Below are positions 33,425 to 62,373 of a DNA stretch of 64,000 nucleotides, one piece after another. Each line of letters begins with the position of its first letter. Positions within the stretch are counted from its first letter, which is position 1. Origin of the DNA: Dioscorea cayenensis subsp. rotundata (Eukaryota > Streptophyta > Magnoliopsida > Dioscoreales > Dioscoreaceae). The notes under the pieces were generated by a model. The model ran no database searches. It was not told the DNA's origin and saw nothing but the letters and a program-made list of their open reading frames with translations. The stretch lies in NCBI RefSeq assembly GCF_009730915.1, contig NC_052480.1, forward strand, positions 2,480,001 through 2,544,000, written 5' to 3'. The position numbers and the translations under genes were made by a program.

Positions 33425-36400
33425 TCAAAAGAGGAAGTAGTTTCTGGACAAGGGGACCGATGAGGCTGGATCACATTTGAGAATCTCTCCATCGGCTGTC
33501 ACTATGTAGGATTCGGGGTCGACACTGATCTTTGGGAGAGCATCATTGAGCTTCATGTTTAGCTTTGTCAGCCCGCGAACATTACCGACAGCTTCCACCC
33601 GCTTTTTGAGACCATACTTGGTTCCTACATCGGCTTCTTTCGCAACCTGCATAAAAAAGGAATTTCAGCACATGGCAGATAAACTAGAGATCCTTTAGAG
33701 TGTGTTCATCACCTTCGAGCAAACTGTGATTATCATACTGTAAATTAATCACTTGACAGAATTCAACTGTAAATAAATGAACAAAACAAATGCTGATTTC
33801 ACTTGCCTTGCTCACAAAAGCAATAGAGTTAACGCTTGCAGCCTTTCCAAATGCACCAAACATCGGCCTCATCATTACCTGTGCCCAATAGGTCAAAATG
33901 TTCAAACATTAGGATCTATGCAAAAATCATGTGCAAGAATTGCTTTGATTGATAGTAGATCCACAAGGAATATGCATGAAAAAACATGTGAATGCAATTT
34001 AGTAGAGTCTTGGACAGTAGTTGAAGAATATGATACCGGTTCAGGTGTAGGAATACTAGCATTTGGATCACCCATGTTGGCCCATGCAATCACACCACCT
34101 TTGATCACCATTTCTGGTTTGACACCAAAGAAAGAAGGTTTCCACATGACAAGATCAGCAATTTTTCCAACCTGTTCCAATCAAAATTTATTAGATGCAA
34201 ACTCCACCTAGATTAAGACAGTAACACACATCAGCATGAAATATAGAAAAGAGATTTAGTTATATCTGGAGCTCACAATTAAGATGTAGAAACTTTGAAA
34301 GGTGTAAAAAAAAATGCATTGAATAAGAAGCATATAAGCTCCTAATTACATGGTCAGGGAAAAATATGATACCTCTATAGAACCGACATAATTAGAAAAT
34401 CCATTAGCTATGGCTGGATTTATGGTATATTTTGCTATATAGCGTTTGATTCGGAAGTTATCGTTTTCACACCCATTTGGTTCAATTAATCTTCTCTGCA
34501 CTTTCATCTTGTGAGCTGTTTGCCATGTTCGAGTAATTACCTGAGAAAATTAATATGCAATTAACCATAAAAGAACAGATGACATGAAAATCAGTCCTCA
34601 ATTCTTTAGCTCATAACATCAATTTGCTGATAGACCTAACACATAAAAATGCGATAACTATGATGATAAACAGGAAAACACAGAAAGATTTGTCAATGGA
34701 AAATAAGGTCTGTATTTTGTGAATATTCCTGTTTATAACAAGCAAAAATATGAATAAACTATGTTAGTAAGCAATAGTAAATTACTAACACCATTCTTAT
34801 GTGCTAAGGTGACAGTAAAATTATTTTTAAATACCTCTCCAACACGGCCCATAGCCTGTGAATCAGAAGCTATAATACTAATGGCACCCATATCATGCAA
34901 GATGTCTTCTGCAGCAATTGTCTCCGGACGTATACGAGACTCTGCAAAGGCCACATCTTCCTTGATGTTTTTACAGAGGTGATGGCATACCAACTGCACA
35001 AGTTAAACAGTATTTTAGAGAATAGAGAGTGAAAATCAATAGTTACACAATGTCTATTCTTTTAGTTTTACCAGCATGTCAAGGTGCTCATCTACAGTAT
35101 TTGAAGTAAAAGGTCGGGTTGGATTTGTTGATGAGGGCAAGACATTTTTCACACCACAAACTTTGATGATATCTGGAGCATGACCACCACCTGCACCTTC
35201 ACTGTTTGATGCCATTAAAAAGAAGATTTTGCTAACAGATAATTTTGTTGATGATAATCTTGTAAAAGAGAGATGCAAATTACTGGCAAAACATTTTATT
35301 CACAAGATAGAACAATAAGCATTAGCAAAAAATAAAAAATAAAAAATATTGAACCTCAGAAGAATGGAATTGTTGGAACAATAAGTACACAAAATTAAGT
35401 TCTACGAACCCAAGGAGAAATTAACTTCTTGTATTTACAAATCGCACTACCTGTGGTAAGTGTGGATTGTTCTATCCTTAAAGGCATCAATGGTGTGTTC
35501 CACACAGCCAGATTCATTCAAAGTGTCTGTATGGATGTTAACCTAACCAAATAATGGCACATGTAAGACACAATGTCCTTTTGAACTTTTCAACTACAGA
35601 AGTCAATAACTAAGTTACTTGGATGTCAAATATCTCAGCAACTGCCAAACAATTATTTATAGCAGCAGGAGTGCTTCCCCAGTCCTCATGAAGCTTTAAA
35701 CCCATAGCACCTGCCTCGACAATTTCCATTAATCCTTCTGGTTTAGCACTATTTCCCTGGTTAATACATCATAAAGATTGATTACTAAGGGAATGAAAAC
35801 AAACATTGCTTCAAACATGAAATTGTACTAAAGTTTGATGATAAAGTACCCAAACACTGAGGAATGTTTGCATGCATTGAGACAAAATTCAGTGATACAT
35901 AATTGAGCCAGCAAAAGACAATGCACCAGTTTTCTCCAAAATAGAAGGCCTAACAAACCAACCAGACAGACTAGTACGTAGTGGAAAGACAATGAAAGTT
36001 GCGCAATGAAAGACGACAATGTCCTGTGAACTCTTCTGAGGTGACATCTAGAAGTTTTTTCAGATACAGCAGGGGGTGCTCTACGTTTCAATAAACATAA
36101 ACGTTTATTCATTCTTGGAGAAACTTGACCTCCATTTATGAGACTGCATCTCACAACTTTATACAGTGAAAAGAATATATAACTATACCTTGCCAGTGAA
36201 TCCGATATTGATTGGCAGGTCATCAGTTGACTGCAGCATTAACTGCATATGACATGGGGCTGTTGTGCAAGTAGTGGCACGAGTTCCATCTGCAGGTCCT
36301 GTCCCACCTCCCACAAGTGTAGTGATACCTGATATCAGGGTTATTTGGCTCTTTAGAGACATAATGGTGCAAAGTAAAACATGGTGTTTCAGCAAATGGC

Positions 36401-39400
36401 TCAGACGTCCAATTAATTCATATGATTGTGAAGTTATGTTTTATAATCATCAAGCAAATTTTAGAATGAGACTTTACATGAAACAATATTTTAGGTTCTA
36501 ATAATCGTTATATCATACCAAGAAAGTAAAAGAAAAGACGATACCACTTGCTATAGCCTCTTGTGCCAACTGAGGACATATGAAGTGCACATGACAATCT
36601 ATGCCCCCAGCAGTTACAATCATGCCTTCTCCTGCGATAACTTCAGTGCTAACCTGCATTTAGATATTTAGTATCCCATAATTTTTGCACAAATTACCAT
36701 ATTCACCAAAATCTAGAGCTGATGCTGCATGTGTGGAAAAGTGATCACCCCAACAATCATATGTCTTAAAACACCATCCATGATATCAGGGTTCCCAGCC
36801 TTTCCAATAGCAATAATATTTCCTCCTTTGATCCCAATATCAGCCTTGTATATTCCTGTATAGTCAATAATTACAGCATTGGTGATAACAGTATCTATGC
36901 ATGCTGAGGTTGGACAGCCTGCTGCCTGTCCCATTCCATCACGCAAAACCTTTTCCACCTCGAGATACACATTCATCACCATAAACTGCAAAATCCCTTT
37001 CAATTTCTGCATATAATTCAGTGTCGCCAAGCTTTATCTTGTCCCCAGTAGTGGGCCCATACTTATTTGCATAGTCTTCACGTGAAACTTCTATAATTTC
37101 AAGAGGACAATGGCTGCCATCATGTCGATCGAATTCCCCAATAACACCTTCACTGCAGCAAAAATCAATTGAGTTTTATGAATAAAATCACCTAGCTCGC
37201 TATTGAAAAGCATTGGAACAATAAAACCATCCAACTAGCAGTTAAGTTCTGAGAAGCTTTCATAGGTCATAGCCATCAAACTGATCCTAAATAAGTTCAG
37301 AAAACATCTATTGAGACTAGAAAAGAACAATTGACTGTAGTAACTGAAAACTGAGTGTCTAGGCTATCTAAACCTTGCATCTGGTTCTTCTTCATTCCCA
37401 AACCCTTTAGCTTTCACATCGTCCATCACTTCATCAAGCTTGGAATAATCAACAGGGCCATCCACAATGCCATTTCCACCTCTAATAATTTTATCACCTC
37501 CAATGCTGACAAGGGTGACGTATTTGGTATCCCCTGGCTAAAAATTGGTACTTTAGTGACAGGCATTGTGCAACCGGATTCCAAATGGAAAAGTATTAGT
37601 GGCAGAGCATCCTGATAATAAAGAAGGCGTGCATGCTAATAATATGATGAAAATTATAACTAAGCAAAACATTTACAAAAACTGCTGTATGCAGAATAGA
37701 ATTTGTATTGGATAAAATCAGGAAAACAATTTACATAATATATAATATAGTGCACAATTTTATTAACCATAAAAGCAGCAAACAAAGGCTGGTTCTAAAA
37801 TGGAACTACTACCTACATTCTATCCCCTACGGCTAGAGTAAGTGGTGCTGGCCAATGAATTACCATGATATCAGCATTTTGGCTAGACATAGAAACCAAG
37901 ATATAATGTGATAATGTCATGCATAAAGCTGTTATAACAAAAACTTGATTCGTGAGGAACTACCGAGTCAAACACTTCAAATTTAATTGTGCGAAAACAT
38001 TATTTGAGATGTTATTCTAACAAAACTCAGAACTATACAGTTTTACATTTACTAACACTCAGATAGTGAGTTGAAGACCATCATAAAACTGCTCGCTAAC
38101 CATTGTAATGCATGCCCTTGCACCTGCCAACTTATTACAATAATAAAAAAATGCACAGGAATGAACGTGTAAATTTAAATAGTTCAATTGCTAAAATTTT
38201 ACATTGTTGTCATCACCGAGTGACATGTTATTGCATAAAGTTCAAGTAGACCACAGAACAAAGGCAAATATAATGCATGCCAGACAAAATACCAGTTAAT
38301 ATGAAATTAATACTATTGCACTCTGTAATAAGAGATAAATTAATTTATGAAGCAATTCAAAATGGCCATTACCTCAAATCGAGTAGCAGTCCCTGCACAT
38401 ATATTTAACCGCATACCATAAGCCTTTCTTCTATCAAAAACCAGGTAGGGGTTCACCTCAATGAAGTGATAATGGCTTCCTATCTGAAAGTTAAATTTGG
38501 TGTCAGAAACTAACCTCAATTGGAATTTGACAAATTTTAGTTGGAAAAATGCAAAGAAAACTATTTCAAACTCCAGGCCAAACCAGTCTGAGTATTCCAG
38601 ATAAAAACAGCCACACTTAAAATTTGGAAAAAGACTATGACCTCCAAGAAAATCAGAATAGTGTTTTATAAGGATCAAAATAACTCAGTATCAATAAACA
38701 TCTTTTGTGAATTACTAAGATTTAACAAGGACAAGTACAATAAGAATGATAAACAGACAGTTTGAATTGAGTCAATATGCCAATTCAGCATACAGTCTTG
38801 TTAGATGTGGAATAAAATAAAACAAATATACAATTTTCGCACTCATATGTTTCACTGAGTTTCTACTGATTATCTATGAAAGGAGATACAACAAGAAGAA
38901 TCACCTGAATAGGCCTGTCTGCCTTGTTTACAATTTTCAATCTAACAATCTTACGTCCAACATTTAGGATGATCTTCTCGTCACATCGACATATGAATTT
39001 ACCAGGAACACAATCAGCTACATCCACCACAAATTTATCAAGTGAAGGAACTGCAAAGGATTGATCAATTTCCACTTCAATATCATTCACAAAGAGATAC
39101 TCTCGTGCGCTACTTTCATAAGGTAAAGTTGATTTTAGTAACGAATGAATCAAGACATAAATTGCAGCTTCTTCCAGATTGCATCTAGTTCTACAGTGTG
39201 TCAGACATAAATTGGTAGTTTCCTTGTATGCAAACTCCAGTCAAGCATTTTATACGATATATGGCCATAATGTCTATTGTGCATAGAAAATTGTTTGACA
39301 AACAAGAAATTCACCAACTAAGTATATTGTGAATACAATGCTATTTGAAACTTGTAAAAGAAGATTAAAGAAACCCACAAAAACATATAAGATGTAGTTG

Positions 39401-40109
39401 AAAATCTACAGCATAGATATAACTAAGGGGAAAAATCATGATTATACCAAGTTATTTCAAGCAAATGACTAAATTCTAAGGTTGATTAAGTTATCTTCTT
39501 CACCGGGGAAAACTGAGCCATGTAATGCCAGCTCCAGATTGCCATTATCACATGCAATAGGATCATGTATGGTGATCAGCTTTGTTCCATCCATGAATGT
39601 ACCATTAACCTAATGCAAATGTAATGCGAGTTAGATAATATTTTTGTGAAGAAATTGAAATACTCATGCAGTAATATGAAAAATTATTTTGATCAAAACA
39701 AGAAGGAAAGATGAGACAAATGAGCCATTCTTCAAGTATGAAACTTAATTCCTCCTAAATGTGTCAATAAGACTACAAGCAAGTGTTGAATTTAGGGTGT
39801 TCAGAAGATAGTACCTGAACTCTATCTAGAAGATGTGGAACAGCTGGAAGAACTTGTCGCCTACAAAAAGTAATTAGAATGAGCTCCTGTTAACAAACTC
39901 TACACCAGTTTCTATAAGCAATAGGAAGCAAACAACGCAAGCATAAGAACAGTAATTAATAATTATAGACATATCTTAATTTGTCGGACCTTCATCAATA
40001 TAAGGTTTCACAAATGAGTCCACTGAGAACCCAAGGCACTTGACTTACCTTTTCTAACTAATCAGAAGAACCTAGAAACATTGAAGCTACAATAACCAAT
40101 AAGAGAAAA

Positions 40110-40155
<46 letters not shown>

Positions 40156-40891
40156 CAAACTAGTTTACATGACCACTGCATGAATCCAAGCAAACTTCAC
40201 AAGCTGTTAAGTCAGCCAAGAGAAGCATTGAGTAAGTTGTAGGCATGCAACACCTTAAAGAACCTAAACACATGATTGACATCCAAGATACCAACATACA
40301 AAATAAATACACCTCCCATCTAATTAATTCAGCTATTCTCTTTCCAAGTGTCTGCATTTTGTATCAATAAATGAGGGTTACATTCCAAATCAAAGTGATA
40401 TTAAGGATAACTCAATCAAAATAGCCCACCTCCCAAGAAGCTGTTTCCCAATGCACATTAACTCTGCAACAGTCTTGTCGCCATCACGAACAAACTCCAG
40501 AATCTACAAATCAATGGATGAGTAAAGGAACAACATTCTCCAAGTAAAACATTAAAGTGATCTCTCAAAATTGAACAACGTCATAGTCCAGCACACATTA
40601 AAAATATCAGTAAAAAAAAAGTTTCTGAACTCACATTGACCCACCATTATTACATTCTCAAATAACATCAAACTTAATTTCTCAAAAAATAAAAATAAAA
40701 ATAACAACAGAAATTAAAGGGCTAAAAGAACCTGAGATTACCTGAGTTGCTATAAGAGTGACAGCCTCAGTGTAATTGAGGCGTAGGCCACGAGCCAAGC
40801 GCTTCTGAGCAAGAAACCCAGCCTGGTGCAGTGCCAACTTCTCAACCTCTCTCGGGCCCAACTTCTCGACCTCTCTCGGTGTCAACCTCAT
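33425..40891 (-). CDS. Urease, 18 exons, with one apparent frameshift in exon 8
   Basis: A single-chain plant urease (urea to ammonia and carbamate; cytosolic, di-nickel, needs accessory proteins). Exons on the minus strand are 40742-40891, 40430-40503, 39815-39860, 39504-39609, 38905-39050, 38373-38483, 37374-37537, 36749-37152, 36545-36653, 36189-36328, 35619-35756, 35451-35542, 35072-35201, 34835-34993, 34373-34540, 34037-34171, 33807-33878 and 33425-33646. Phases agree throughout, and the product would be 854 aa but for one extra G at 36949-36950 after GGAAAAG. That base puts TGA in frame just before the conserved RDGMGQ. Active-site elements are present: [13 protein letters not shown], the lysine of [20 protein letters not shown] and HSEGAGGGH, with C-terminal [10 protein letters not shown]. 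The start [11 protein letters not shown] is typical, but REVEKLGP is duplicated. Intron 17 uses GC-AG. The shift may be a sequencing error; if real, the gene is dead. Confidence 0.92.
36949..36950 (-). other. Putative 1-base insertion breaking urease exon 8
   Basis: The minus strand reads GGTGGAAAAGGTTTTGCGTG here. The inverted copy at about 58,124 reads GCTGGAAAAGTTGTGCGTG, one G fewer, and stays in the urease frame ([10 protein letters not shown]). Both sides of this site are in the correct family frame, so the shift is confined to one base. Confidence 0.85.
40111..40154. repeat. (TAA)n microsatellite in urease intron 2
   Basis: About fourteen perfect AAT/TAA triplets between exons 2 and 3 of the urease gene. 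Confidence 0.97.
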
Positions 40892-40969
40892 GCTTCCAAC
40901 TTGCTCGTTGAAATGCCTGACTGGAATCAAACAATCAAGATCCAAAAAATAAGCATCCAAGAAGGAAAG

Positions 40970-41210
40970 AACAAGCAGTAGTTCTTGCTATGAAGCTAAT
41001 CATGCGAAAATTCTTGAATGAAAAAGAGGGTTTTCACTCAATGCAACCAAGATTCAAGAAAGAAAATATCCAACAAAAATGTGATTCTTGCTGTGAAGCA
41101 GATCACGCACTCAACTTGTTTGTAAAAATGCACGGATCAGAAGGGTTTCCACTCTATGTAACCAAAGTTTCAAAAAACAAGATATCCAATCAAGGAAAGA
41201 AGAACCAGTG
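40970..41210. repeat. Tandem repeats of about 110-120 bp in the urease 5' flank
   Basis: Two units start with TTCTTGCTATGAAGCTAATC (40,982) and TTCTTGCTGTGAAGCAGATC (41,085). Each continues with a GCGAAAATTCTTGAATGAA- or GTAAAAATGCACGGATCAG-like phrase, then CACTCAATGCAACCAAGATT / CACTCTATGTAACCAAAGTT. A third, partial unit, TTCTTGCTGTGAAGCTATGC, lies at 41,653. The same material is present, inverted, at 54,570-54,860 beside urease copy 2. Confidence 0.8.
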
Positions 41211-41721
41211 GTTCTTTGTAATGACTGTATCCTTCAGATCTGAATAAGAACTATGAAAAGCTAATTCAACAGAGAGTTGAACGCTCACTAGAGTCTAAAC
41301 TCCAGCCATCAACAACAACAACAACAACAACAACATAACAAATAACAAGCAAGAAAATTATAACCAGTCAACAAGCATCAAAGCACAAGAGTTCTTTCAT
41401 GAATACATGACTACAAGAGACTCCATGAACTAGTAATTGCCAAGATATAAAAGATACGAACTCTGAGGAGAACGCCAAGAAAACCCTAGACGTCCAGCTG
41501 AGCCTCCTCTGCTTCTCCCCAGAGAATCAGGGCATCTCTGCGTTCGTCTTCCATTTCCCCCCCTTGCTGTCCTCGCTTTTCCGTTTACAGCCCCCCACTG
41601 CCTCGGGATCAGTTGTCGTTGTGCAATACTAATCACGATGAGTAAATAACATTCTTGCTGTGAAGCTATGCACTCAAATATGTTTGCGAAAATGCGTGAA
41701 TGAAAAGAGGGATGGGAGGAG
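41211..41721 (-). promoter_or_regulatory. Probable urease promoter and 5' leader region
   Basis: 500 bases upstream of the urease coding start hold a GC-rich island at about 41,480-41,620, including CCCCCC runs. This is unusual in this AT-rich window and is a plausible transcription start region. A (CAA)n run lies at about 41,311-41,334. There is no decisive TATA box. The inverted urease copy lacks the counterpart of about 41,250-41,640. Confidence 0.35.
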
Positions 41722-41925
41722 CGATGAGGAAGTCATCCGCATTGGTTCTGGAACCACCAGAGAATATCATGGTTTTAACCTATCATATTTTGATACGTGT
41801 TTTATATGATATTAATTTTTTTTTCTATTGTGATTTGATTACATGTGTCAGATTTTAATAGGTTGAAACCAGGGAACATCCCTGGTTCCAGAATCAAGGG
41901 AGATGACTTCAGCGATGAGCTCACC
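41722..41925. mobile_element. Fold-back / MITE-like element with about 75-base inverted arms
   Basis: The left arm (GAAGTCATCCGCATTGGTTC, then TGGAACCA...GGTTTTAACCTATCATATTTTGATACGTG) pairs with the right arm CATGTGTCAGATTTTAATAGGTTGAAACCAGGGAACATCCCTGGTTCCAGAATC...GATGACTTC. The mismatches are scattered and the AT-rich loop is about 50 bases. A single-strand hairpin is predicted. No clean target duplication was found. A phrase similar to the outer arm (CTGAAACCAAGTGAGATGACTTCA) recurs at 48,335-48,358. Confidence 0.65.
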
Positions 41926-42599
41926 GCACCAGTAACCACTCGGGAAGCTCCGACTCGTGTCAAAGAAGAAGGCGGAGAACGGCGCAGAGGTCGGCAATTC
42001 TTTATGGAAGTCCAAGGTTGCTTGTTTATCTATTTGTTCATTCCTAATTTCCTAAATTATAATAAAAAATTTAAAATTATTTTTATACTAAAATTCAAAA
42101 AATTTAGAAATATTGCACTTATTTGTTGGGAAAAAAAGAAATGGTTAAATTGGGTTGTGTGTATATAAACAACTATATTAATTAACAACCTCTTGGTTGA
42201 TTGATAGTTGTATTTTGTGTAGGTTGTTCGAGTTCGAATTTCAGTTTATATAAAGTGATGACATAGATATGTTAAATTATTAACTCTACAAAATACACAT
42301 GTTTGTATAGACTTTGAATAAAAAAATCAATTAAAAAAAAGAAAAGAAAAAAAGAAGAATCAAACAAAAAGATATAGGAGGGCCAAAATGAAAAAATAAA
42401 AATTAAAAAATGTCATGCCACCAATTGTCACATAGGGAAACATCAAAAAGAATAATGTAGGATCCTTTTTATATAAATAAAAAATTTGAAATCCAAAATT
42501 CAAAAATTCAAAATAAAAAAGAAAAGGGTTAAAATTTTAAAAAAAATTTGAATTGAAAATTTGAAAACATAATCTCCCATCAGATGACGTGAAGTTGGC
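41926..42599. other. Intergenic, AT-rich
   Basis: Nothing coding is recognised. The start (41,926-42,020) is GC-richer, with CGACTCGTGTCAAAGAAGAA, and may be old promoter or repeat DNA. The rest is A-rich. Confidence 0.5.
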
Positions 42600-42930
42600 G
42601 ATATTGTAGAATAGAGAAAAAAAGATAGGAAAAAGAGAAGAAGAAAGAAGAAAAGAAAGAACATAGAGCTTTGGAAGAAAAAAGAAAGAAAAGAAGAAGA
42701 GGGTTCAGAGAGGTGCAAGAAAAAGTTAGGAACAAAAAAAGAGAGAGTTTTTGGGTGAAGAAAAAAAAGAAGGAAAGAGAACTAAGAAGGAGATTGAGGA
42801 AAAAAGAAAAGAGACCAGAGAGGGGAGGAGACGGCAAGAAAGGTAGAACAAGATCAAAAGAGAGAGAGGCAGTTGATAAAACACGGTGGAGGAGACGAGA
42901 AGCAGCTGATCAGTCTTGAAAAAAAAATTA
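42600..42930. repeat. Long polypurine tract
   Basis: The plus strand is almost entirely A and G for about 300 bases (GAAAAAGAGAAGAAGAAAGA-type sequence) with few pyrimidine interruptions. ORFs on either strand here give Lys/Arg/Glu- or Phe/Ser/Leu-rich low-complexity peptides and are not genes. Confidence 0.9.
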
Positions 42931-43869
42931 AGAAAGAGATACAATTTTCTCTATGCGATATAGCAAGATGTTGTTTATTGCATGGTTTTATAAAACATGA
43001 AGCATGTATGGATGATCATCATGGGTTATGAGTGCAACCTTGAGTGGGTCTAGTTCTTACATTTTTTTTTTATTGATCCATGCCATGTCATGCATTGGTT
43101 CATGAAACATTGTTAGCATGAATGCATGAAAAATCCTTACCCATGTCTCATATAGCCATCATCCGAATGTGAAATGAACCATGAATCTTGTGAGACCCGC
43201 TTCTTTCTTTTACATTCAATCAATGCCATTATTTGATCCCTCATTAGCATGCATACCATGCCACGTTTTGCTCTCTGATTCGTATGCAATACGATCTATT
43301 GTGCCTTGTACAGTGTTTGCACATTTTATTACTCTTTCCTATGTGCATACAAATGCCTTTATCCTTTCTCTCTTTGCTTGATTTGCATTCGCAAAACCTA
43401 AATCTAACTTTACACAACTCTTTCATGTATGGGAATTAAGAAAAAATGATAGGGTATAATGATAACAAAGTCTATTTTCTTTTCCCAATCAGTGGTCATT
43501 TACATAACCTATAGGTTTACCCTAAGATCTTCGAGCCTCATGTATGACAATCATAGATTTATTGGTAGAATATACGATTGAAAGTTAGAGAAAGAAGAAT
43601 ATATATATATATATATATATATAGTTCGAGGGCTGAAGTGACAAAAAAAAGGCGTAGGAAATCTGGGTTCATTTGCCAAAGTTATCAAAGATGGATTTGT
43701 TTGCAAAAAAAAAGAAAAAAAGGTGGAGAAATATGAAAAAAAAGTGAAGTTTGGAAGGATCTGAATAAATCTTGAACTTTCGTAAAAAAGAAAGGAAAAT
43801 ATAAGGGTTGATGTGAAAAAATGACATGGGATGCTATAATATGAAATCGGGAGAAAGTAATGACTTGAT

Positions 43870-44060
43870 GTGTGGGGGTATTTTTGTACTTTTCACAGGA
43901 TCCCTCTTGGAATTTTTAGTTTGAGAGGAAAAAATGAGTGATGAGTTTATTTGTGAGGGCATTTTTGTACTTTTCACATGACCTCTTCTTGGAATTTTTT
44001 TTTTAGTTTGAGAGTAAAAAAATGAGTGATGAGTTTATTTGTGAGGGGCATTTTTGGTAA
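43870..44060 (+). repeat. About 85-bp tandem repeat
   Basis: Units start at 43,870, 43,953 and 44,041 (partial) with GTG(T/A)GGGG(T/G)(C/T)ATTTTTG. The first two continue GTACTTTTCACA...CTCTTGGAATTTTTAGTTTGAGAG...AAAAATGAGTGATGAGTTTATTT. A related unit start recurs at 44,318. Confidence 0.85.
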
Positions 44061-44378
44061 AAAAAAAAATTGATAAAAAATGAAGAAAAAAAAGATAAAA
44101 AAATGAAGGGTGAGAGAGAGAAAAAAAAAGAAGAGGGGGAAAGGGGAAAAATAAAGGATGAGTAAAAAAAAGAAGAAGAAGAAAAAAAATGAAGGGTAAG
44201 TAAAAAGAGAAGAGAGGGAAAAAATGAAGGATGAAAAAAAAAGAAGAAAAATGAAGAAAGATGAAGGAAAAAAAATATATGGAGGATGGGTAAAAAAAAT
44301 GATGGATGAATTTATTAGTGTGGGGGTATTTTGGTAATTTTTTTGCAGGACCTCCTCTTGAAAGATCCTATGAGCATT

Positions 44379-44560
44379 TCTCTAACTCCATCTTGAGATC
44401 TTGACACTTTTCAGGTAAGGAGAAATTCTCATAAAATTTTTCTAACTCCACCTTGAGGTCTAGACACTCTTGGGGTAAGGAGAAATTCTCATAAAATTTC
44501 TCTAACTCCACCTTGAGATCGTTGAGGTCTTTTGACACTCACTGGGGTGAAGATTAAATT
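44379..44560 (+). repeat. 60-bp tandem repeat, about three units
   Basis: Units begin near 44,379, 44,439 and 44,499 with TTCTCTAACTCCA(T/C)CTTGAG. The first two end GGTAAGGAGAAATTCTCATAAAAT. Non-coding. Confidence 0.9.
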
Positions 44561-45420
44561 TTTTTTTTTTAAGAAAATCTCTCTTCAAACTCACTTTGAG
44601 GTCTTTTGACACTCATTGGAGTAAAAGAAATATGTGGAATGAAAAGAAGAGTAAATGAAAAAAAAAATCTTTTCTTGAAGTGAAAGAAGGGTAAAAAAAA
44701 TGAAAATTTCACAAAAAAAAAATCTCTCGTCAATACTCATTAAAAAAGTGTTTACAAAGATTTTCTTGAAGCCCATTGTGAGGTCTCTTTCGCAAAAATG
44801 AATCAGAGAACTCAATTGGTGACTTAACTAACGGAAATCAAGTTCATAATTACAGCTTGAGATCCATTTTTAAAGCAAGTCAAAATTGTCAAGTTAATAA
44901 CCAAATTATGTCGAAGGTCACGACTTAAAGATCTAATGATCAAGGCTCAGAAGCATTGAAGATTCAAGACCTAAATGTCTCATGTAAGTGACAAATACAA
45001 CTCTGAAGTTTTAAGGCACCAAAAAGTCATAGACTTAAGGAGTTTTACAAGTCAAAGATCTGAAGTTTTTTTTAAGTACAAAGAGCCAAAGTTTTCAGCG
45101 ATACAAGAAGCAAGAATGACCAAGCAGACAACTCACAAATGCAGAGTGCCTGCAGCTTGAGAGTCATGCAATGTGTCAAGATGCAATCACACATAAAAAA
45201 AATCGAAGATGAAACAGTAACTGAACTAAAGGGTTTTCCGACATGCTTTTAGCAAAAGAGTCAAGTGCGTCATCCAAGTCAAAAAAAAAAAGTTTGAAGA
45301 ACATGATAAAAAATAGCTCTCTTAATACTTTTGTATTCTCGCTCATTATCATATGTTCATATGTTCTTTGAAGTTAATAAAAAAATTAATTTTATGTTTG
45401 CTCAATCGTTTCTCATTCAT

Positions 45421-49252: not shown

Positions 49253-50596
49253 TGTTAGGGAATAGTGTACCTGGATCGATCCGCTCTTGAGAACACTACA
49301 TGGTTGTAAAGTCATAAGTGTTTTTCTCAAGCAATTCTTGTACTCGAATCCTTCGACCTAAAATCACTATGGATCTCGGATGAATCCTTACATGCTTTAA
49401 CTTACGCCTAACGTCATTCGTAACCGAGTGGCAAGTACGGGTATATTTGGGCATGTCGCGGTTCATGCTGAGACACATGAGTGAAGTGAAGGGATTGTCC
49501 CTCTTGGTAGAGAGAGTGAATATCACCGGCCACTTGATTAGTGAGACTGAGTAGTGCGTGATCACGCCCAAGGGAAATGATAAGAGTTATCATTTACTTG
49601 ACCTAGTCAGTTTACTAAGAGATCAAGAAATTAATTAGCATTAAAATAAGGGTGACTCACTCCATGCCTTATGCTAATTAAGATATTTAGTGGCAAAGGA
49701 TTGTATGAGGTTGCAATAGGTTCCGTTAATTCTCGAAATTGACCTTCATTTAATATTGGGTAATCGTATTATCTTGCTAGAGAATAATTATGATTTATGA
49801 GCGTTAAAATTGTTTAAGCTCATTGCCAATGTTAAATGGACCTACAGGATCATATACTAAGAATGTCGGAATCAAGGTTCAGTATTTGTTACTTATTGGA
49901 CCACCTATTTAGGGTTTTGGTGAAAAACCTAAATTAGGTTGAGCGAATAGCTTATTCGGGATGTGTCTTATTAAGTGTTAATCCAATCTAATCGATTTGG
50001 TTAATTAAAATGGTTTAATTAATCAAGTCAAGAAGAGATTCCTAATTTGATTATGAGTGAAGGGTTTTTTCATAAATTAGGGTTTTGAGTTTCCAATATA
50101 AATAGATGGTCTAACCCTAATATGAGAATGAAGGAAGAAGAGAGAAAAAAAAGATAGAGTGATTGAGAGATTGTCTCTTAAGAAACCCTAGCCGCCACCC
50201 ACTCTTTTTCCCTTGGCCGCCGCCATCAATTTCCGCCGCCGCCGTGCCTACAGCCCCTTTTCTCTTGAATCTCGGGTGCTTGCTGTTTGAACCAAGAAAC
50301 AAGTGTTGTTTCTTGAGATACTAGCATACCTGCTTGATTCTCAGGGGCGTTCGTGTGTACGTGATAGTAGAGGAGAGTCGCGATTCGCAGTCCTTTTCGA
50401 TTCAGGGGAAACAAGGGTGCATTCAGAATCGTCATCAAAAGAAAGGTATAACTTATAATTATCTAATTTAATCCTAGTTCTGGCATGCGTTAGGGTTTTA
50501 TCATGTTTACTTACCGTTAAAATTTTCTTATCTGCTGCGTTTTAGCATGTATTTTTTGCATTATAATTCCCTTATTAGAGTGATAAGATCCCAACA
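49253..50596 (+). mobile_element. Probable solo LTR (about 1.34 kb)
   Basis: It starts TGTTAGGGAATAGTG and ends GTGATAAGATCCCAACA; the ends are TG...CA with short imperfect inverted repeats (TGTTAGGGA / TGTTGGGAT). The interior has promoter-like and leader-like sequence, including a GC-rich CCGCCGCCGTG stretch at about 50,215-50,245, but no protein domains. No primer site follows 50,596 and no polypurine tract precedes 49,253, so it would be a solo LTR. A 5-bp target duplication was not seen. Confidence 0.55.
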
Positions 50597-51671
50597 TTCT
50601 ATCCCCTAAAAATTTTTTTTTCTGAACTCGCATGATAATTTCCTTGTAATAGATGAAATTTCTAATACTAATAACTAGAAAGACCAGCCATCAATTAATA
50701 GCACCCACCTAACCCATTGTTAGCTCTTTCAATCAATAAATTCCTAACACCCACCTAACCCCATCTGACCCATTGTTAGTTCTTTCAATCAATAGCACGT
50801 CAAGGCCTATGCCACCATCTCCCGTTCAACTCCAAAGACCACGAGATCTCCACCTCCCTTGGCAGCAAAGACAAGGGCATGAGCTTCGCTAGCATGCCAA
50901 AGCCTACGCCACCACCACCGCCCACTACGCCTCCAAAGATAACAAGATCTCTATGACGATTAAGAAGGGATCAAAGAAGGGTAAGGAAAGACTTTTGGGA
51001 TCAGATAAAACCGATTAGAAGTCCTCTCTAAATACACAGTCTTAGATGTTTGTGGATCTATGATTACTTGATTTCTACTCATGTTTCCTTTGTGATCTTC
51101 AATTTGTTTGATTTATGATGTTAGGATTTAATATCTCATTCTTTTTATAATGCATATATCTTAGGATTATTTCAATAGTTTTAAATTGATGCTTTTAGTT
51201 ATTATTTGTTGAAGATTGTGAATTGTTGTTCTTAATATGCTTTTTTTATGATTAAAGAAAATAAATGCAATTGTTTTCAAAGTTTTGCATGTTCATCTTT
51301 TTACATAAGGTTTCTTTCTTTGTTTGGTTGAATTTCACAATAGAATGATTAATGATTGATTTCATTATTTTAGTTTTTTTTGCAGAGAAAGGTAGAAGAG
51401 GTTTCATTTCATGGTGAAGCCCTTTGTTTAAGCATGAATTATTGATTGACACAACTTAATTCACAAAAGGGAGCACACCAATAGTACCAGATTTTGTGTC
51501 TCCTACCAAGGATAGACCAAGTCATATGTCTATGATTTCTACTAAAAACAATATTCCTTCCAAGCCTACTAATCCACCGACTGAGACCCCATTTGCAAAC
51601 AATAATAATGTTGTTGAGAGCACCAATATTGATGATAGTACATAAGTATCCAAATTTTGATTTTGGCACTC

Positions 51672-51711
<40 letters not shown>

Positions 51712-51989
51712 TTTTATTTTGTTTATCGCTTCCATGTTTTGACATCCAAACTTTTAGTGTATAGTGGAATCACATCCACCCCTTTGACCGAAGTGAATGT
51801 GGCACCTCATCAGTTAAAACTCCATTTTAACTACAACCAAACACCACTACAAAACAAAACCAAACTTACAGAATATGATTGACAACTTTTATACGAATTA
51901 CAAGTTCAAAAACATGCATACAAGAAACATAAATACCCAAATATGCTGGTATAGTAGCCACAAGACCACAACACAAACAAATCGAAAGG
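50597..51989. other. Intergenic, repeat-rich
   Basis: Contains a duplicated phrase (CACCCACCTAACCC...ATTGTTAG...CTTTCAATCAATA at 50,703-50,740 and 50,749-50,790), a C-rich stretch with GCCAAAGCCTACGCCACCACC near 50,910 and an (ATT)n microsatellite at 51,672-51,711. No convincing gene. Confidence 0.5.
51672..51711. repeat. (ATT)n microsatellite
   Basis: About thirteen perfect ATT triplets followed by a T-rich run. The minus-strand ORF with an Asn run here is an artefact of this repeat. Confidence 0.97.
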
Positions 51990-52772
51990 GAGGAGACCCA
52001 CTGCATCACTGATCTCCGCACTGCCCTCTACTCCTATTGAGCTGCATCAGCGACTCTCCTCTTCTGATGGTGAGCTTCTACCTAATCCTACTCACTATCG
52101 TGCACTTATTGGTGCTCTTGTCTATTTGACCAGTACTCGGCCTGATATTGCATATGTTGTTCGTGTTCTTAGTCAGTGTGTGAGTGCTCCTCGCTCTACT
52201 CATGACGCTGCCCTCTTACGAGTTCTTCGTTATCTTCGTGGCACTATATCTCACTCTTTACTTTTTTTCCTGCCACGCCTTCTCTTGAGTTGCACGCCTA
52301 TTGTGATGCTAATTGGGCAAGTGATGCCTCTGATCGACGTTCTACTATTGGTTTCTGCATTTTTCTTGGAGATTCCCTTATCTCTTGGAAAAGCAAGAAA
52401 CGATCTACTGTTGCTCTTTCTATTGTTGAGGTTGAGTATAGTGCTATGTTCACTACTGCTAAGGAGGTTCTTTGGTTGCGTCAGATTTTAATGGACTTTG
52501 GTGTCTCTATCTCTATCCCCACTCCTATATACTGTGATAACCAAAATGCCATTAAAATTGCTGCCAACCATGTATTTCATGAACGTACGAAGCATCTTGA
52601 GATCGCTCTTCACTTTGTTCGTCATCATTATCTTGCTGGCAGTATTTTTCTTCCTTATGTCGCCTCTACATAGCGGCTTGCTGATCTTTTCACTAAGGTA
52701 CATACTGTCTCTCAGTTTCAGTGTCTAGTTGACAAACTCTTGGTTTATGGCCCACCGTGAGTTTGAGGGGCG
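51990..52772 (+). pseudogene. Ty1/copia pol fragment (end of reverse transcriptase and RNase H)
   Basis: The translated pieces read HYRALIGALVYLTSTRPDIAY and then RSTHDAALLRVLRYLRGT, the link between copia reverse transcriptase and RNase H. They switch frame near 52,262-52,290 and continue as the RNase H domain: YCDANWASDASDRRSTIGF, FLGDSLISWKSKKRSTVALS and EVEYSA, then IYCDNQNAIKIAANHVFHER and HFVRHHYLAGSI. The domain has the expected Asp/Glu/Asp residues. A TAG interrupts just before RLADLFTK, the usual end of copia polyproteins. Only the 3' end of an element remains, with at least one frameshift and one stop. Confidence 0.92.
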
Positions 52773-52922
52773 TGCTAGAGTATATTCACTGTGTACATAT
52801 ACTGTGTACTTATACATATATACCCTTGACTATACATACTTATGTATACACCCTTCTTGTATATATATGGACTGCTTTACTCTAATGAACACACATTCTT
52901 TTCTCTCATAATTTATCTATCA
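52773..52922 (+). mobile_element. 3' LTR remnant of the copia fragment
   Basis: Directly after a purine-rich GAGTTTGAGGGG tract, the expected polypurine primer, the sequence TGCTAGAGTATATTCACTGT starts a block ending near ATTTATCTATCA. Position and TG start fit a short LTR. The end point is approximate. Confidence 0.6.
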
Positions 52923-54559
52923 CCACTAATTCATTAAAGAAGAGAACTTTCAAGTTATTTATTTGATATATTATGACACAATTAAAAATAATTTATAATT
53001 AAAAAAATAATATTTAAAAATATTTTTATTAACTCAATGTTGACCTAAATGATCCGACAGTTAAACCAATTGACCGAGACCCGAAACTTAGACCAGCTTA
53101 ATGCCCAAGCGGAGTCTGATAACTATGATTTCAACCCTTTAAAAGTAAAATATATTATATACATTTAATTATTTAATAATATAGGTTCAATTTAAAGTTT
53201 ATACATGAATAACTTTACAAATAACATAATATAAAATTTAAATCACGTTCAATATAATTTTGTTTTTGTTTTTTTCTTCAAAAAGTGGATAGATTGAAAT
53301 TAAAGATTGAGTATAAACTAGAGACAAGGGACCACAAGAGTCGAGAATTACAAGAGTTCTATGAGTAGAGGACAAAGAGAAATAAAAAATAGACAATACT
53401 GAGGAAATATACAAACACCCCTATGAAATACAAATGCATCCCAAATCTAAACCCGGTGAATATTATAAATGAAACATTATTCTTGTTTTATCATGTTTTA
53501 TTCTACAAAAATTAAACATAGACCATTTAGTAATTCTACTATATTTGTAGCATATCATAGCAAATGTCTATAGTTCATTTTTTTTCATATTTACGTTTTG
53601 ATATAATTACTCGATCATGTCCCATTCATCCCAAGTGAAGTTTTTTTTTTAATATACACAAATTAATACAACAAGAAAAGAGTTTATAACTCAACGGTAT
53701 TTATCATACTATAAAAGATATTTAGTGTGAAGGTTTTAAGAGCTTCGAGTTTAAATTTCATTGAATATAATAATGGTAATGGAACCCCTAATTGTGAGTG
53801 TGAGTTTGAAATCCAAATTTTATATAATCAGGTAAAGGCATAAAAACTGAAGGATTAATTCTTAATTCGTGTGCATGTTTTCAACTATATTGCCTTTATT
53901 GAGAAAAAAAAACCCTTGACTTCCATTTTTATTATAATATGTTTTTTTTATACAACTGCATTGGGTGTTATATTTATATATTTATTTATGTTGTAATTAC
54001 ACGTCCTTCTGTCAAAATTACTATTATCACATTTCCCGCTCCATATAGAAATAAGACAAGATTTTTACCCCAAAATGAAGATCTTGTCGTACATGATCTT
54101 TAGCAGCACAGGTAGCCTAGCAAAATATGGGTTTTTCTAGAGTTCAAGTTTGTAGTTAGAAAACTCTAGAATTGGGTGAAATACTTATACTATCGGTCAA
54201 ATCAAATAAATCTCACCCCAAAATATTTGGAGTTTTTCTAGATATTTTTTTAAAAGAGTACAAAGTCTACTAAAATACATAAAGAGGCTAAGGGCTATAA
54301 ATTGACTTAAAAGTGTCCTCATTTGAAAACCAACCAAGACTTGAATTCTTGAAGCAATAAAGCGTTCTTGTTTTCAAGTTCCTTTTTTATCTTTTCGTAA
54401 GTTTTCGTATTCTCAAGCTTTCAAGTTGAGTTTGTTGTCAAGCTTTGAGGGAAAACCGATTAAGTGCGTGACACTAGGACTCGCTGACCTCTGCGCAGTC
54501 ACCACCGGTGAGCTCATCACTCCTTACATTTCTCCGTTAATGGTGGAAGTCCTCGCTGT
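52923..54559. other. AT-rich intergenic DNA
   Basis: No gene or clear repeat recognised. The last 200 bases lead into the inverted urease copy. Confidence 0.5.
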
Positions 54560-55189
54560 TTGCATACTTTCTTTTCATTCACGCATTTTCACAAACACAT
54601 TTGAGTGAATGATCAGCTTCACATCAAGAACCATCGCTCCCTCTTTCCTTGTTGGATATCTTGTTTCTTGAAACTTTGGATGCATCGAGTGGAAACCCTT
54701 CACAGCAAGAACCACATTTTTGTTGGATATTATATTGCTTGGATTCATGCAGCAGTCATGTAAACCAGTTTGAGCCTTAGAGAAACTTGCAGTGTCATGA
54801 CCAAAAATTTTTTTGAGCACCATATTGCAATTTCTGATGCTGTCTTTTTGAAGGAACATGTTACTTGAAATTTAGTAGCGATTGATTATGTTATTATTTT
54901 TTTATTTTATTCTTTTCTGGTTTTGTCATAGAAATGACAGTGATATTGGTTATTGTAGCTTCAATGTTTCTGGTTTCTTCTGATTAGTTAGAAAAGGTAA
55001 GTCAAGTGCCTTGGGTTCTCAGTGGAAACATTTGTGAAACCTTATATTGATGGAGGTCCAACAAATTAAGATATGTTTACAATTATTAATTACTGTTCTT
55101 ATGGTTGCATTGTTTACTTTGCTTGCTAATGCTTATAGAAACTGGTGTAGAGTTTGTTAACAGGAGCTCATTCTAGTTACTTTTTGTAG
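54560..55189 (+). pseudogene. 5' flank and intron 2 relic of inverted urease copy
   Basis: Read on the plus strand, TTTTCATTCACGCATTTTCA and then CTTCACAGCAAGAACCACATTTTTGTTGG match the reverse complement of the first urease's 5' flank (41,000-41,240 and 41,640-41,707). From about 54,960, TTAGTTAGAAAAGGTAAGTC matches its intron 2 (around 40,060). The counterparts of exons 1 and 2 (40,430-40,891) and of the GC-rich promoter region are missing, so this copy has no start. Confidence 0.8.
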
Positions 55190-58100
55190 GCGACAAGTTC
55201 TTCCAGCTGTTCCACATCTTCTAGATTGCGTTCAGGTACTCATCTTCTGAACACCCTATATTCCACACTTGCTTGTAGTCTTATTGACACTTTTAGGAGG
55301 AATTAAGTTTGATACTTGAAGAATGATTCATGTGTCTCATCTTTCCTTCTTGTTTTGTTCAAAATAATTTTTCATATCACCGTGTAAGTTTTATAATTTC
55401 TTCACAAAATATTATCTAACTTACAATACATTTTGCATTAGGTTGAGGGCACGTTCTTGGATGGAACGAAGCTGATCACCATACCTGATCCTATTGCATG
55501 TGATAATGGCAATCTGGAGCTGGCATTACATGGCTCATTTTTTCCTGGTGCAGAAGATAACTTAATCAACCTTAGAATTTAGTCATTTGCTTGAAATATC
55601 TTCCTTGGTATAATCGTGAATTTTCCCCCTTAGCTTTATCTATGCCGTAGATTTTCAACTACATCTTATATGATTTTGTGGGTTTCTTTAATGTTCTTTT
55701 ACGAGTTTCAGATAGCATTATATTCACAATATACTAAGTTGGTGAATTTCCTGTTTGTCAAACAATTTTCTATGCCCAATAGACATTATGGCCATACATC
55801 GTATAAATTATAAAATGCTTGACTGGAGTTTGCATACAAGGAAACTGTCAATTTATGTTTGACATACTGTAGAACTAGTCACAATCTGGAAGAAGCTGCA
55901 ATTTATGTCTTGATTCATTTCATTGCTTACATCAACTTTACCTTGCTAAAGTAGTGCATGAGAGTATCTTTTTGTGAATGATATTGAGGTGGAAATTGAT
56001 CAATCCTTTGCAGTTCCTTCACTTGATAAATTTGTGGTGGATGGTGCTGATTGTGTTCCTGGTAAATTCATATGTTGATGTGATGAGAAGATCATCCTGA
56101 ATGTGGGACGTAAGATTGTTAGATTGAAAGTTGTAAACAAGGCAGACAGGCCTATTCAGGTGATTTTTTTTTTGTTTTATCTCCTTTCATAGATCATCAG
56201 TAGAAATTCAGTGAAACATATGAGTGCGAAAATCGCATATTTGTTTTATTTCAATCCACATCTAACAAGACCGTATGCTGAATTGGTATATTCACTCAAT
56301 TCAAACTTTGTCTGTTCATCATTCTCTTCATACTCATCCTTGTTGAGTCTTAGTAAGTGTCAAAAGATGTTTATTGATACTGAGTTATTTTGATCAGAAT
56401 AAAACACTATTCTGATTTTCTTGGAGGTCATAGTCTTTTTCCAAATTATAAGTGTTTGTTTTTATCTGGAATACTCAAGACTGGTTTGGCCTGGAGTTTG
56501 AAATAGTTTTCTTTGCATTTTTTCCAACTAAAATTTGAAAAATTCCAATTGAGGTTAGTTTCTAACACCAAATTTCACTTTCAGATAGGAAGCCATTATC
56601 ACTTTATTGAGGTGAACCCCTACCTGGTTTTTGATAGAAGAAAAGCTTATGGTATGTGGTTAAATATATGTGCAGGGACTACTACTTGTTTTGAGGTAAT
56701 GGGCATTTTGAATTGCTTCATAAATAAATTTATCTATTATAACAGAGTGTATTAATTGGTATTTTGTCTGGCATGCATTATATTTGCTTTTGTTCCATGG
56801 TCTACTTGCATTTTATGCAATAACATGCCTCTTGGTGATGACAACAATGTAAAATTTTAGCATTTGAACTATTTAAATTTACACATCCATATCCTGCGGT
56901 CCATATAGCTTTGTTCCTGTCCATTTTTTTGATTATTGTAATAAGTTGGCAGGTGTGAGAGAACATGTATTACAATGGTTAGCGAACCCTGAAACATGCA
57001 CAGCAGCTTTATGATGGTGATCAACTCACTATCTGAGTGTTGGTAAATGCAAAGCTGTATAATTCTGGTTTTTTTTTAAAATAGCATCTCAAATAATGCT
57101 TTTCACACAATTAAATTTGAAGTGTTTGACTCAATAGTTCCTCACAATTCAAGTTTCTGCTTTAACAGCTTTATATCTTGGTTTCTATGTATAGCCAAGA
57201 TGCTGATATCATGGTATTTCATTGGCCGGCACCACTTACCCTAGCCGTAGTGGCTAGAATGTAGGTGTATAGTTCCATTTTTGCACCAGGCTTTGTTTGC
57301 TGCTTTTATGTTTAATAAAATTGTGCACTATATTATATATTATGTAAATTGTTTTCTTAATTTAATCCAATCCAAATTCTGTTCTGCGTACAGCAGTTTT
57401 TGTAAAGGTTTTGTTCAGTTATAATTTTCATCATATTCTTAGCATGCATGCCTTCTTTATTATTAGGATGCTTTGCCACTAATACTTTTCTGTTTGGAAT
57501 CATGTTACACAATGCCTTTCACTAAAGTACCATTTTTTAGCCAGGGGATGCCAAATACGTGACCGTCGTCAGCATTGGAGGGGATAAAATTATTAGAGGT
57601 GGAAATGGTATTGTGGATGGCCCTGTTGATTATTCCAAGCTTGATGAAGTGATGGAACATGTCAAAGCTAAAGGGTTTGGGAATGAAGAAGAACCAGATG
57701 CAAGGTGTAGATACCCTAGACACTCAGTTTTCAGTTTCTTCAGTCAATTGTTCTTTTCTAGTCTCATTTATATATTTTCGGAACTTATTTAGGATCAGTT
57801 TGATGGCTATGACCTATCATACCTTCTCAGAAGTTAACTGCTAGTTGGATGGTTTTATTGTTCCAATGCTTTTTAATTGAGAGCTAGGTGATTTATTCAT
57901 AAAACTCAATTGATTTTTGCTGCAGTGAAGGTGTTATTGGGGAATTCATTCCACATGATGGCAGCCATTATCCTCTTGAAATTATAGAAGTTTCACACGA
58001 AGACTATGCAAATTAGTATGGGCCCACTAGTGGGGATAAGATAAAGCTTGGCGACACTGAATTATATGCAGAAATTGAAAGGGATTTTGCAGTGTATGGT

Positions 58101-61100
58101 GATGAATGTGTATTTGGAGCTGGAAAAGTTGTGCGTGATGGAATGGGACAGGCAGCAGGCTATCCAACCTCGGCATGCTTAGATACTGTTATCACCAATG
58201 CCGTAATTATTGACTATACAGGAATATACAAGGCTGATATTGGGATCAAAGACGGATATATTATTGCTATTGGAAAGGCTGGAAACCCTGATATCATGGA
58301 TGGCGTTTCAGGAGATATGATTGTTGGGATGACCACTTTTCCACATATGCAGCATTGGCTCTAGATTTTAGTGAATATGGTAATTTCTGCAAAAATTATG
58401 GGATACTAAATATCTAAATGCAGGTTAGCACTGAAGTTATTGCAGGGGAAGGCATGATTGTAACTGCTGGAGGCATAGATTGTCATGTGCACTTCATATG
58501 TCCTCAGTTGGCACAAGAGGCTATAGCAAGTGGTATGGTCTTTACTCTTACTTGCTTGGCATGATACAACGGTTACCAGCACCTAAAATATTGTTTCATG
58601 TAAAGTTCTCATTCTAATATTTGTTTGATGATTATAAAAATATAACTTCACAATCATATGAATTAATTGGACCTCTCAGCCATGTGCTGAAACTTCCTGT
58701 TTTATTTTGCAACATTATGTCTCTGAAGACCCAAATAACCCTGATTTCAGGTATCACTACACTTGTGGGAGGTGGGACAGGACCTGCGGATGGAACTCGT
58801 GCCACTACTTGCACAACATCCCCATGTCATATGCAGTTAATGCTGCAGTCAACTGATGACCTGCCAGTCAATATCGGATTCACTGGCAAGGTATAGTTAT
58901 ATATTCTTTTTTCTGTATAAAGTAGTGAGATGCAGTCTCATAAATGAAGGTCAAGTTTCTCTAAGAATGAAATAAACCTTTATGTTTATTGAAACGTAGA
59001 GCACCCCCTGCTGTATCTGAAAAACTTCTAGATGTCACCTCAGCAGAGTTCACAGGACATTGTCGTCTTTCATTGTGCAACTTTTCATTGTCTTTCCACT
59101 ACGTACTGCTCTGTTTGGTTGGTTAGTTAGGCCTTCTTTTTGGAGAAAACTGGTGCATTATCTTTTGCTGGCTCACTTATGTACACTGAATTTTGTCTCA
59201 ATGCATCCAAACCTTCCTCAGTGTTTGGGTGCTTTATCATCAAACTTTATTACAATTTTATGTTTGAAGCAATGTTTGTTTTCATTCCCTTAGTAACCAA
59301 TCTTTATGATGTATTAACCAGGGAAATAGTGCCAAACCAGAAGGATTAACTGAAATTGTCAAGGCAGGTGCTATGGGTTTAAAGCTTCAAGAGGACTGGG
59401 GAAGCACTCCTGCTGCTATAAATAATTGTTTGACAGTTGCTGAGATATTTGACATTCAAGTAAGCAAGTTATTTACGTCTGTAGTTGAAGAGTGCAATGG
59501 GATATTGTCTCTTACATGTTTCATTATTTTGGTTAGGTTAACATCCATACAGACACTTTGAATGAATCTGGCTGCGTGGAACACACCATTGATGCCTTTA
59601 AGGAAAGAACAATTCACACTTGTCACAGGTAGTGTGTTTTGTAAATTCAAGAACAATAAGATTCACACTTGCCATAGAACTTAATTTTGTATACTTATTG
59701 TTACAACAATTCCTTCTGAGGTTCAATTTTTTTTTTTTTTTTTTTTTTTTTGGTAATGCTTATTGTTCCTTTATCTTGTGAATAAAATGTCCTGCCAGTA
59801 ATTTGCATTTCTTTTTCAAGATTATCATCAACAAAATTATCTGTTTACAAAATCTTCTTTTTAATGGCGTCAAAACAGTGAAGGTGCTGGTGGTGGTCAT
59901 GCTCCGGATATTATCAAAGTTTGTGGTGTGAAAAATGCTTTGCCCTCATCAACAAATCCAACCCGACCTTTTACTTCAAATACTGTGGATGAGCACCTTG
60001 ACATGCTGGTAAAAGAATACACATATTTCATAACTATTGATTTTCACTCTATATTCTCTAAAATACTGTTTAACTTGTGCAGATGGTATCCCGCCACCTT
60101 GATAAAAACATCAAGGAAGATGTGGCCTTTGCAGAGTCTCATATACGCGCTGAAACAATTGCGGCAGAAGACATCTTGCATGATATGGGTGCCATTAGTA
60201 TTATAACTTCTGGTTCACAGGGTATGGGCCGTGTTGGAGAGGTATTTTAAAATAATTTTACTGTCACCTTAACACATAAGATTGGTGTTACTAATTTACT
60301 ATTGCTTACTAACATAGTTTATTCATATTTTTGCTTGTTGTAAACAGGATTTTTCACAAAATACGGACATTATTTTCCATTGACAAATTTTTTTGCATTT
60401 TCCTGTTTATCATCATAGTCATCACATTTTTATGTGTTAGGTCTATCAGCAAATTGATGTTATGAGCTAAAGAATTGAGAACTGATTTTCATGTCACCTG
60501 TTCTTTTATGGTTAATTGCATATTAATTATCTCAGGTAATCACTCGAACATGGCAAACAGCTGACAAGATGAAGGTGCAGAGAGGAAGATCAATTGAACC
60601 AAATAGGTGTGAAAACGACAACTTCCGAATCAAGCGCTATATAGCAAAATATACCATAAATCCAGCTATAGCTAATGGATTTTCTAATTATGTGGGTTCT
60701 GTTGAGGTATCATATTTTTCCCTGACCATGTAATTAGGAGCTTATATGCTTCCTATTCAATCAAATTTTTTTTTTTAACACCTTTCAAAGTTTCAACATC
60801 TTAATTGTGAGCTCCAGATAACTAAATCCCTTTTCTATATTTCATGCTGATGTGTGTTACTGTCTTAATCTAGGTGGAGTTTGGATCTAATAAGTTTTGA
60901 TTGGAACAGATTGGGAAAATTGCTGATCTTGTCATGTGGAAACCTTCTTTCTTTGGTGCCAAACCAGAAATGGTGATCAAAGGGGGTGTGATTGCATGGG
61001 CCAACATGGGTGATCCAAATGCTAGTATTCCTACACCTGAACCGGTATCATATTCTTCAACTACTATACAAGACTCTTCTAAATTGCATTCACATGTTTT

Positions 61101-61609
61101 TTTCTCACTAGCTGGCCATGCATTTTCCTTGTGGATCTACTATCAATCAAAGCAATTCTTGCACATGATTTTTTGCATAGATCCTCATTTTTGAACATTT
61201 TGACCTATTGAGCACAGGTAATGATGAGGCCGATGTTTGGTGCATTTGGAAAGGCTGCAAGTGTTAACTCTATTGCTTTTGTGAGCAAGGCAAGTGAAAT
61301 CAGCATTTGTTTTGTTCGTTTATTTACAGTTGAATTCTGTTAAGTGACTAATTTACGGTCTGATAATCAGTTTGCTCGAAGGCGATGAACACATTCGAAA
61401 GGATCTCTAGTTTATCTGCCATGTGCTGAAATTCCTTTTTTGTGCAGCTTGCGAAAGAAGCCGATGTAGGAACCAAGTATGGTCTCAAAAAGCGGGTGGA
61501 AGCTGTCGGTAATGTTCGCAGGCTTACAAAGCTCGACATGAAGCTCAATGACGCTCTCCCGAAGATCAGTGTCGATCCCGAATCCTACACGGTGACAACC
61601 GATGGAGAG
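55190..61609 (+). pseudogene. Second urease copy, truncated and inactivated
   Basis: Exon counterparts 3 to 18 of the first urease, in the same order: 55190-55235, 55442-55547, 56014-56159, 56585-56695, 57541-57704, 57926-58328, 58424-58532, 58751-58890, 59322-59459, 59537-59628, 59879-60008, 60083-60241, 60536-60706, 60910-61044, 61218-61289 and 61448-61609. Lesions: no exons 1-2; TGA at 56076-56078; TAG at 58014-58016 in the conserved YANKYGPT block; donor GT after 58328 changed to AT. KLHEDW has become KLQEDW, and VCHHL has become VSRHL. The last exon ends abruptly where an LTR begins. Exon sequence is otherwise well kept, and at the site of the first copy's extra base this copy has the normal frame. 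It cannot make a urease, though transcripts are possible. Confidence 0.93.
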
Positions 61610-62315: not shown

Positions 62316-62317
62316 AC

Positions 62318-62328: not shown

Positions 62329-62373
62329 AGGCAAGATCGCTGTACAAGGAGAAGGCTTTGTCCAGAAACCTTG

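Follow-up and report, generated by a model that had tools for sequence, protein, structure and literature searches.

Urease genes and neighbouring features in the window

The window, a stretch of 64,000 nucleotides of Dioscorea cayenensis subsp. rotundata (34.4% G+C, zero N), carries two urease gene copies. Arm A lies on the minus strand and arm B on the plus strand, head to head and pointing away from each other.

33425–40891, minus: arm A, coding region of the urease gene, 18 exons
40891–40742, 40503–40430, 39860–39815, 39609–39504, 39050–38905, 38483–38373, minus: arm A, exons 1–6
37537–37374, 37152–36749, 36653–36545, 36328–36189, 35756–35619, 35542–35451, minus: arm A, exons 7–12
35201–35072, 34993–34835, 34540–34373, 34171–34037, 33878–33807, 33646–33425, minus: arm A, exons 13–18
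36940–36960, minus: arm A, exon 8, frame shifted by a single base when compared with arm B (arm alignment)
40834–40881, minus: arm A, exon 1, 24 bp duplicated in tandem and in frame (residues added compared with 3LA4)
41217–41651, minus: arm A, 5' flank, insertion of 435 bp with TG...CA ends and AAGAA on both sides; absent from arm B
41729–41910, minus: 182-bp MITE-like insertion in arm A, with 28-nt terminal inverted repeats; CTCATCGCT (9 bp) flanks both sides
41992–54486, no strand: spacer of about 12.5 kb, bounded on each side by the end of recognisable homology and made up in part of transposon remnants
54486–61609, plus: arm B, truncated urease copy, exons 3–18 (from 55190); exons 1–2 absent
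56076–56078, plus: nonsense TGA in exon 5 of arm B; CGA in arm A (arm codon comparison)
58014–58016, plus: nonsense TAG in exon 8 of arm B; AAG in arm A (arm comparison)
58329–58330, plus: exon 8 splice donor of arm B, AT; GT in arm A (splice-site comparison)
59322–59459, plus: arm B, exon 11, with an active-site residue replaced at position 492 (jack bean numbering)
60083–60241, plus: arm B, exon 14, with active-site residues replaced at positions 592, 593, 609, 633 and 636 (jack bean numbering)
61610–64000, plus: arm B, last exon interrupted by a probable LTR retrotransposon of Ty3/gypsy type (Pfam and sequence)

We placed the exon boundaries manually at AG/GT signals and tested them in alignments with 3LA4 and 4G7E, which we take to be the ureases of jack bean and pigeon pea. 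The only AG/GC donor, after exon 17 (AG/GCAAGT), is common to both arms (33807, minus; 61289, plus). The arm A translation is a urease of 854 positions (1403 bits to 3LA4, 1399 to 4G7E) that aligns to 3LA4 over 10–854. NCBIfam places the gamma/beta model PRK13192 at 10–258 and the alpha model TIGR01792 at 288–854, the single gamma-beta-alpha chain of a plant urease; arm B lacks the part of this chain coded by exons 1–2. Identity to 3LA4 is nearly equal in the two arms (551 of 747 compared residues in A, 548 of 746 in B). Rfam RF02514 (5_ureB_sRNA) scores above its gathering score antisense to urease in both arms, at 58144–58516 (minus) and 36561–36933 (plus), and these matches probably arise because the model cross-matches the conserved coding sequence of ureB.

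Self-comparison of the window, as proposed in the first-pass annotation, yields one dominant inverted pair, 33485–40101 against 61609–54944 (6731 aligned columns, 90.8% identity, 8846 bits, E = 0); the second-best pair is a direct repeat of 848 columns. With gaps left out, the arms are 92.4% identical over 6559 compared sites, and their non-exon sites are 91.4% identical over 4278. Since the introns between exons 3 and 18 are common to both arms, a processed retrocopy is ruled out. Opposite orientation and common introns identify an inverted gene duplication at the genomic level, and the corresponding claim of the first-pass annotation, which hinged on intron homology between the arms, is borne out. 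Its claim of shared exons holds for exons 3–18 and fails for exons 1–2.

Homology continues weakly into the 5' flanks, in pieces at 41140–41216/54701–54626 (87.0% identity), 41652–41708/54630–54570 (86.9%), 41052–41098/54744–54698 (89.4%) and 40156–40193/54772–54735 (92.1%). Arm B at 54735–54744 joins points equal to about 41052 and 40193 of arm A, and 54773–54943 in B matches nothing in A, which has an (AAT)15 run at this place. Two identical short words were read by eye further out, GACCTCTGCGC at 41992/54486, which is also paired in the global alignment, and GGTGAGCTCATC at 41925/54508, which is unpaired there. These words suggest that detectable homology extends to about 41992/54486. Degenerate repeats around TTCACAGCAAGAA and TTGGATATCTTG occur in the 5' flanks of both arms (40937–41216, 41652–41708 and 54570–54744), as the first-pass annotation had noted for the flanks, and since both arms carry them they probably predate the duplication.

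A distance of 14.8 kb separates the strong arms, and one of about 12.5 kb the ends of weak homology, where about 13 kb had been estimated earlier; recognisable transposon, then thought to fill the spacer, makes up parts of it only. A probable Ty1/copia remnant was recognised by eye at 51958–52670 and is matchless in Pfam and PDB searches. A dispersed repeat stands at 48494–48678 and 45746–45846, with a further copy at 32152–32341, and A/G-rich simple repeats are also present. The sequences that follow inward from the 5' ends of the arms have only simple repeats in common. Among 13 distinct spacer stretches compared with Pfam, short and low-complexity stretches being left out, none reached the curated cut-off. 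No tRNA genes were found, and the spacer revealed neither the duplication breakpoints nor the mechanism.

Arm A has ordinary neighbours, adenylate kinase exons at 3309–4068 (plus) and M18 aminopeptidase exons at 20097–23149 (minus). Between 6500 and 18500, a Rad21/Rec8-like gene is directly duplicated in tandem, with copies about 7 kb apart and pieces 72–82% identical; each copy has one stretch that matches Pfam PF04825. Part of a third copy lies at about 11.7–13.0 kb, its pieces 73–85% identical to 8.1–9.3 kb, and the right copy contains a repeat-rich stretch at 17244–17444.

Lesions and divergence of the two arms

Both copies look broken, and neither arm is intact as assembled. Reading of arm A from the start codon ends after 336 residues at the exon 8 frameshift, which adjoins short homopolymers and, in this one assembly, could be either a true lesion or an error in the sequence. 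In arm B, the reading frame is held over exons 3–18 save for the two nonsense codons. The open reading frame of a plant urease is thus interrupted in each copy, and the intact arm assumed in the first-pass annotation is missing, unless the frameshift of A is a sequence error.

At the 3' side, 33425 is the final base of the arm A stop codon, and after 61609 arm B gives way to an inserted element. The position formerly taken as the end of the copy is therefore the point at which an LTR-type element interrupts the last exon of B. Its 5' LTR spans about 61610–62315 with a TG start and is followed at 62318 by TGGTATCAGAG, which we take to resemble a primer-binding site for initiator tRNA-Met. Pfam then detects Retrotrans_gag (7.6e-09) and RVP_2, an aspartic protease (1.4e-12); the class name Ty3/gypsy is our assumption. 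The element runs past the window edge (64000), with a single LTR inside the window, and its second LTR and the rest of the last exon of B would fall beyond. Comparison of the 3' flank of A (30000–33484) with the sequence to the right of 61609 gave a single 18-bp match (E = 0.026) and no other homology, as expected from the insertion of this element.

The two insertions in arm A lie in its 5' flank. The terminal inverted repeats of the 182-bp insertion are 86% complementary and, together with the 9-bp target duplication, are features that we attribute to the Mutator type, presumably the family of this MITE. The matching single site in B, CTCATCACT at 54513, was read by eye and is unpaired in the alignment, in which 247 of 328 aligned positions are identical. 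For the 435-bp insertion, the empty site in B is visible in the alignment, and the element could perhaps be a solo LTR.

Divergence between the arms is larger in introns (K = 0.092) than in exons (K = 0.058). Over 751 codons (756 minus three touching indels and two with stops), dS is 0.129, dN 0.037 and dN/dS 0.29, and two copies unconstrained since duplication would show dN/dS near 1. Exons hold only 2 of 41 indels against an exon share of 0.35 (2281/6559 sites; P = 6e-6). Since dN/dS is low and exon indels are few, each copy probably remained a coding gene over much of its history, and the arms seem to have been constrained for a good part of the time since duplication. At plant substitution rates between 6.5e-9 and 1.5e-8 per site per year, this dS would place the duplication roughly 4 to 10 million years ago. 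Identity in 300-column steps ranges from 0.86 to 0.97 and the longest exact run is 81 bp; recent conversion between the arms was rejected on these values.

Polarisation by two legume sequences only, 3LA4 and 4G7E, assigned 14 of 60 differing positions to the A lineage and 19 to the B lineage, one of them nonsense, and left 27 unpolarised. The counts for A and B do not differ (P = 0.49), and the protein rates of the arms on this comparison are similar, A being not clearly better conserved than B overall.

Active-site replacements in arm B

Arm B, the more decayed copy, is unusual in the number of catalytic residues that have changed, and this is the surprising part of the locus. For 14 active-site positions, numbered on the jack bean chain, the residues are kept at 14/14 in A and 8/14 in B. 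All six residues replaced in B are kept in 3LA4, 4G7E and the bacterial chains 8hc1_B and 6qsu_B. The B lineage shows replacements at 6 of the 14 active-site positions and at 12 of 611 other positions conserved in both outgroups (Fisher P = 6e-7), so that 6 of its 18 polarised replacements fall on active-site residues; the corresponding counts for A are 0/14 and 14/611. Ten of the 14 positions are named in passages of PMC10179503, and with the 17 pocket positions given there, 6/17 are replaced in B (P = 2.4e-6). Circular shifts of either site set never reached six (0/624 for each; maximum 3).

This bias is compatible with a stage at which B was catalytically dead but folded. One reading is accordingly that B was once such a urease with a non-ureolytic role and was broken later. 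The contrast with the untouched active site of A and the retained frame of B speak for it, as does the existence of urease roles independent of ureolysis, described in passages of PMC3332383. However, the test was conceived after the list of changes had been seen, and its unpolarised form is weaker (6/14 versus 52/733, P = 3e-4). The signal also depends on exon 14, where 5/6 active-site and 0/35 other positions are replaced (P = 8e-6); outside this exon, enrichment is absent (1/8 versus 12/576, P = 0.17). Nine of the 53 codons of exon 14 differ between the arms with a residue change and four without. Two neighbouring replaced sites may represent one multi-base event, and the changes in B are polarised by two legume sequences only. 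We regard this history as unlikely.

A more specific version holds that B was selected or tolerated as a folded, non-catalytic urease, its active site being dismantled one residue after another with the frame and the greater part of the chain kept, before nonsense mutations and transposons arrived. We give this version little credence; if it were true, plant urease would have had a real pseudoenzyme stage. No urease pseudoenzyme was recognised by title among the matches listed in a literature search. The bias in B provides a way to ask whether a plant urease can survive without being catalytic.

Origin of the pair, silencing and known systems

Starting from the demonstrated arms, common introns, lesions and arm-specific insertions, we infer an order of events and an age, and consider the following account probable. 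A urease gene with its 5' flank would have been duplicated by DNA-level copying into an inverted, head-to-head pair, an event that probably dates back a few million years, and the two copies would have been retained as coding genes for much of the time. Arm B would then have decayed through loss of exons 1–2, stop codons, splice-site loss and active-site replacements, and the LTR element would have cut its 3' end. Arm A keeps its active-site residues and has one frameshift as assembled. The presence of the 182-bp and 435-bp insertions in A only, and of the LTR-type element in B only, argues for this account, and the similar protein rates of A and B (14 versus 19 changes) count against it. The locus would make no working urease unless the frameshift in A is a sequence error, and no silencing function need be assumed.

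The pair might instead be an artefact, the assembly having linked two haplotypes, or homoeologous copies, in opposite orientation. A single assembly lies behind the locus, and arms that differ by 7.6% and by transposon insertions are what homoeologues might look like. Against this, the window is free of N, a dS of 0.129 is high for alleles, and inward of their 5' ends the arms border on sequences that share nothing but simple repeats. This comparison concerns the inner sides, the natural outer flank of B lying beyond the window. An artefact seems improbable to us, and if the assembly is correct, the locus is a real inverted duplication of a gene whose two copies are decaying.

The first-pass annotation also raised the possibility that transcription across the palindrome silences the intact arm. 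A transcript reading through arm, spacer and arm could fold back and, after Dicer-like cutting, supply siRNAs that silence urease genes here or elsewhere. The arms are long and similar and have 1519 aligned exact 21-mers in common, which fall in 103 runs of at least 21, the longest being 81 bp, and would be enough for siRNAs if a transcript crossed both arms; the maize locus Mu killer is likewise a partial inverted duplication (PMC3440606). On the other hand, the stem would be imperfect at 7.6% divergence, 12.5–14.8 kb separates the arms, and the window holds no intact target arm. Since the arms stand head to head, their own promoters, if any, drive outward, so that the convergent transcription envisaged earlier is not expected, and a hairpin would require read-through from the spacer or from the antisense side of one arm. 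The sequence data neither refute nor support silencing, which we think unlikely.

Inverted gene pairs are already known as a kind and are recognised raw material for siRNA loci and pseudogenes, and the present pair is old enough to show the separate decay of its two arms. Both arms at the yam locus are disrupted, unlike the jack bean urease 3LA4. Urease had been described as normally single-copy in plants, which is not general: soybean has three urease genes, Eu1, Eu4 and Eu5, according to passages of PMC5452136. Soybean is thus similar in having several urease genes in one plant, but these passages describe no inverted pair. Mu killer resembles the yam locus as a partial inverted duplication with a proposed read-through hairpin; it differs in that a transposase gene is involved, the hairpin is shorter (about 4 kb) and silencing was shown (PMC3440606). 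The soybean I locus, with its inverted repeats of chalcone synthase genes (passages of PMC3804491 and PMC6710647), similarly places inverted gene copies at one plant locus over tens of kb. There, the genes encode chalcone synthase, and siRNAs and their targets were shown, whereas the present pair encodes urease, is known from sequence and has no intact arm.
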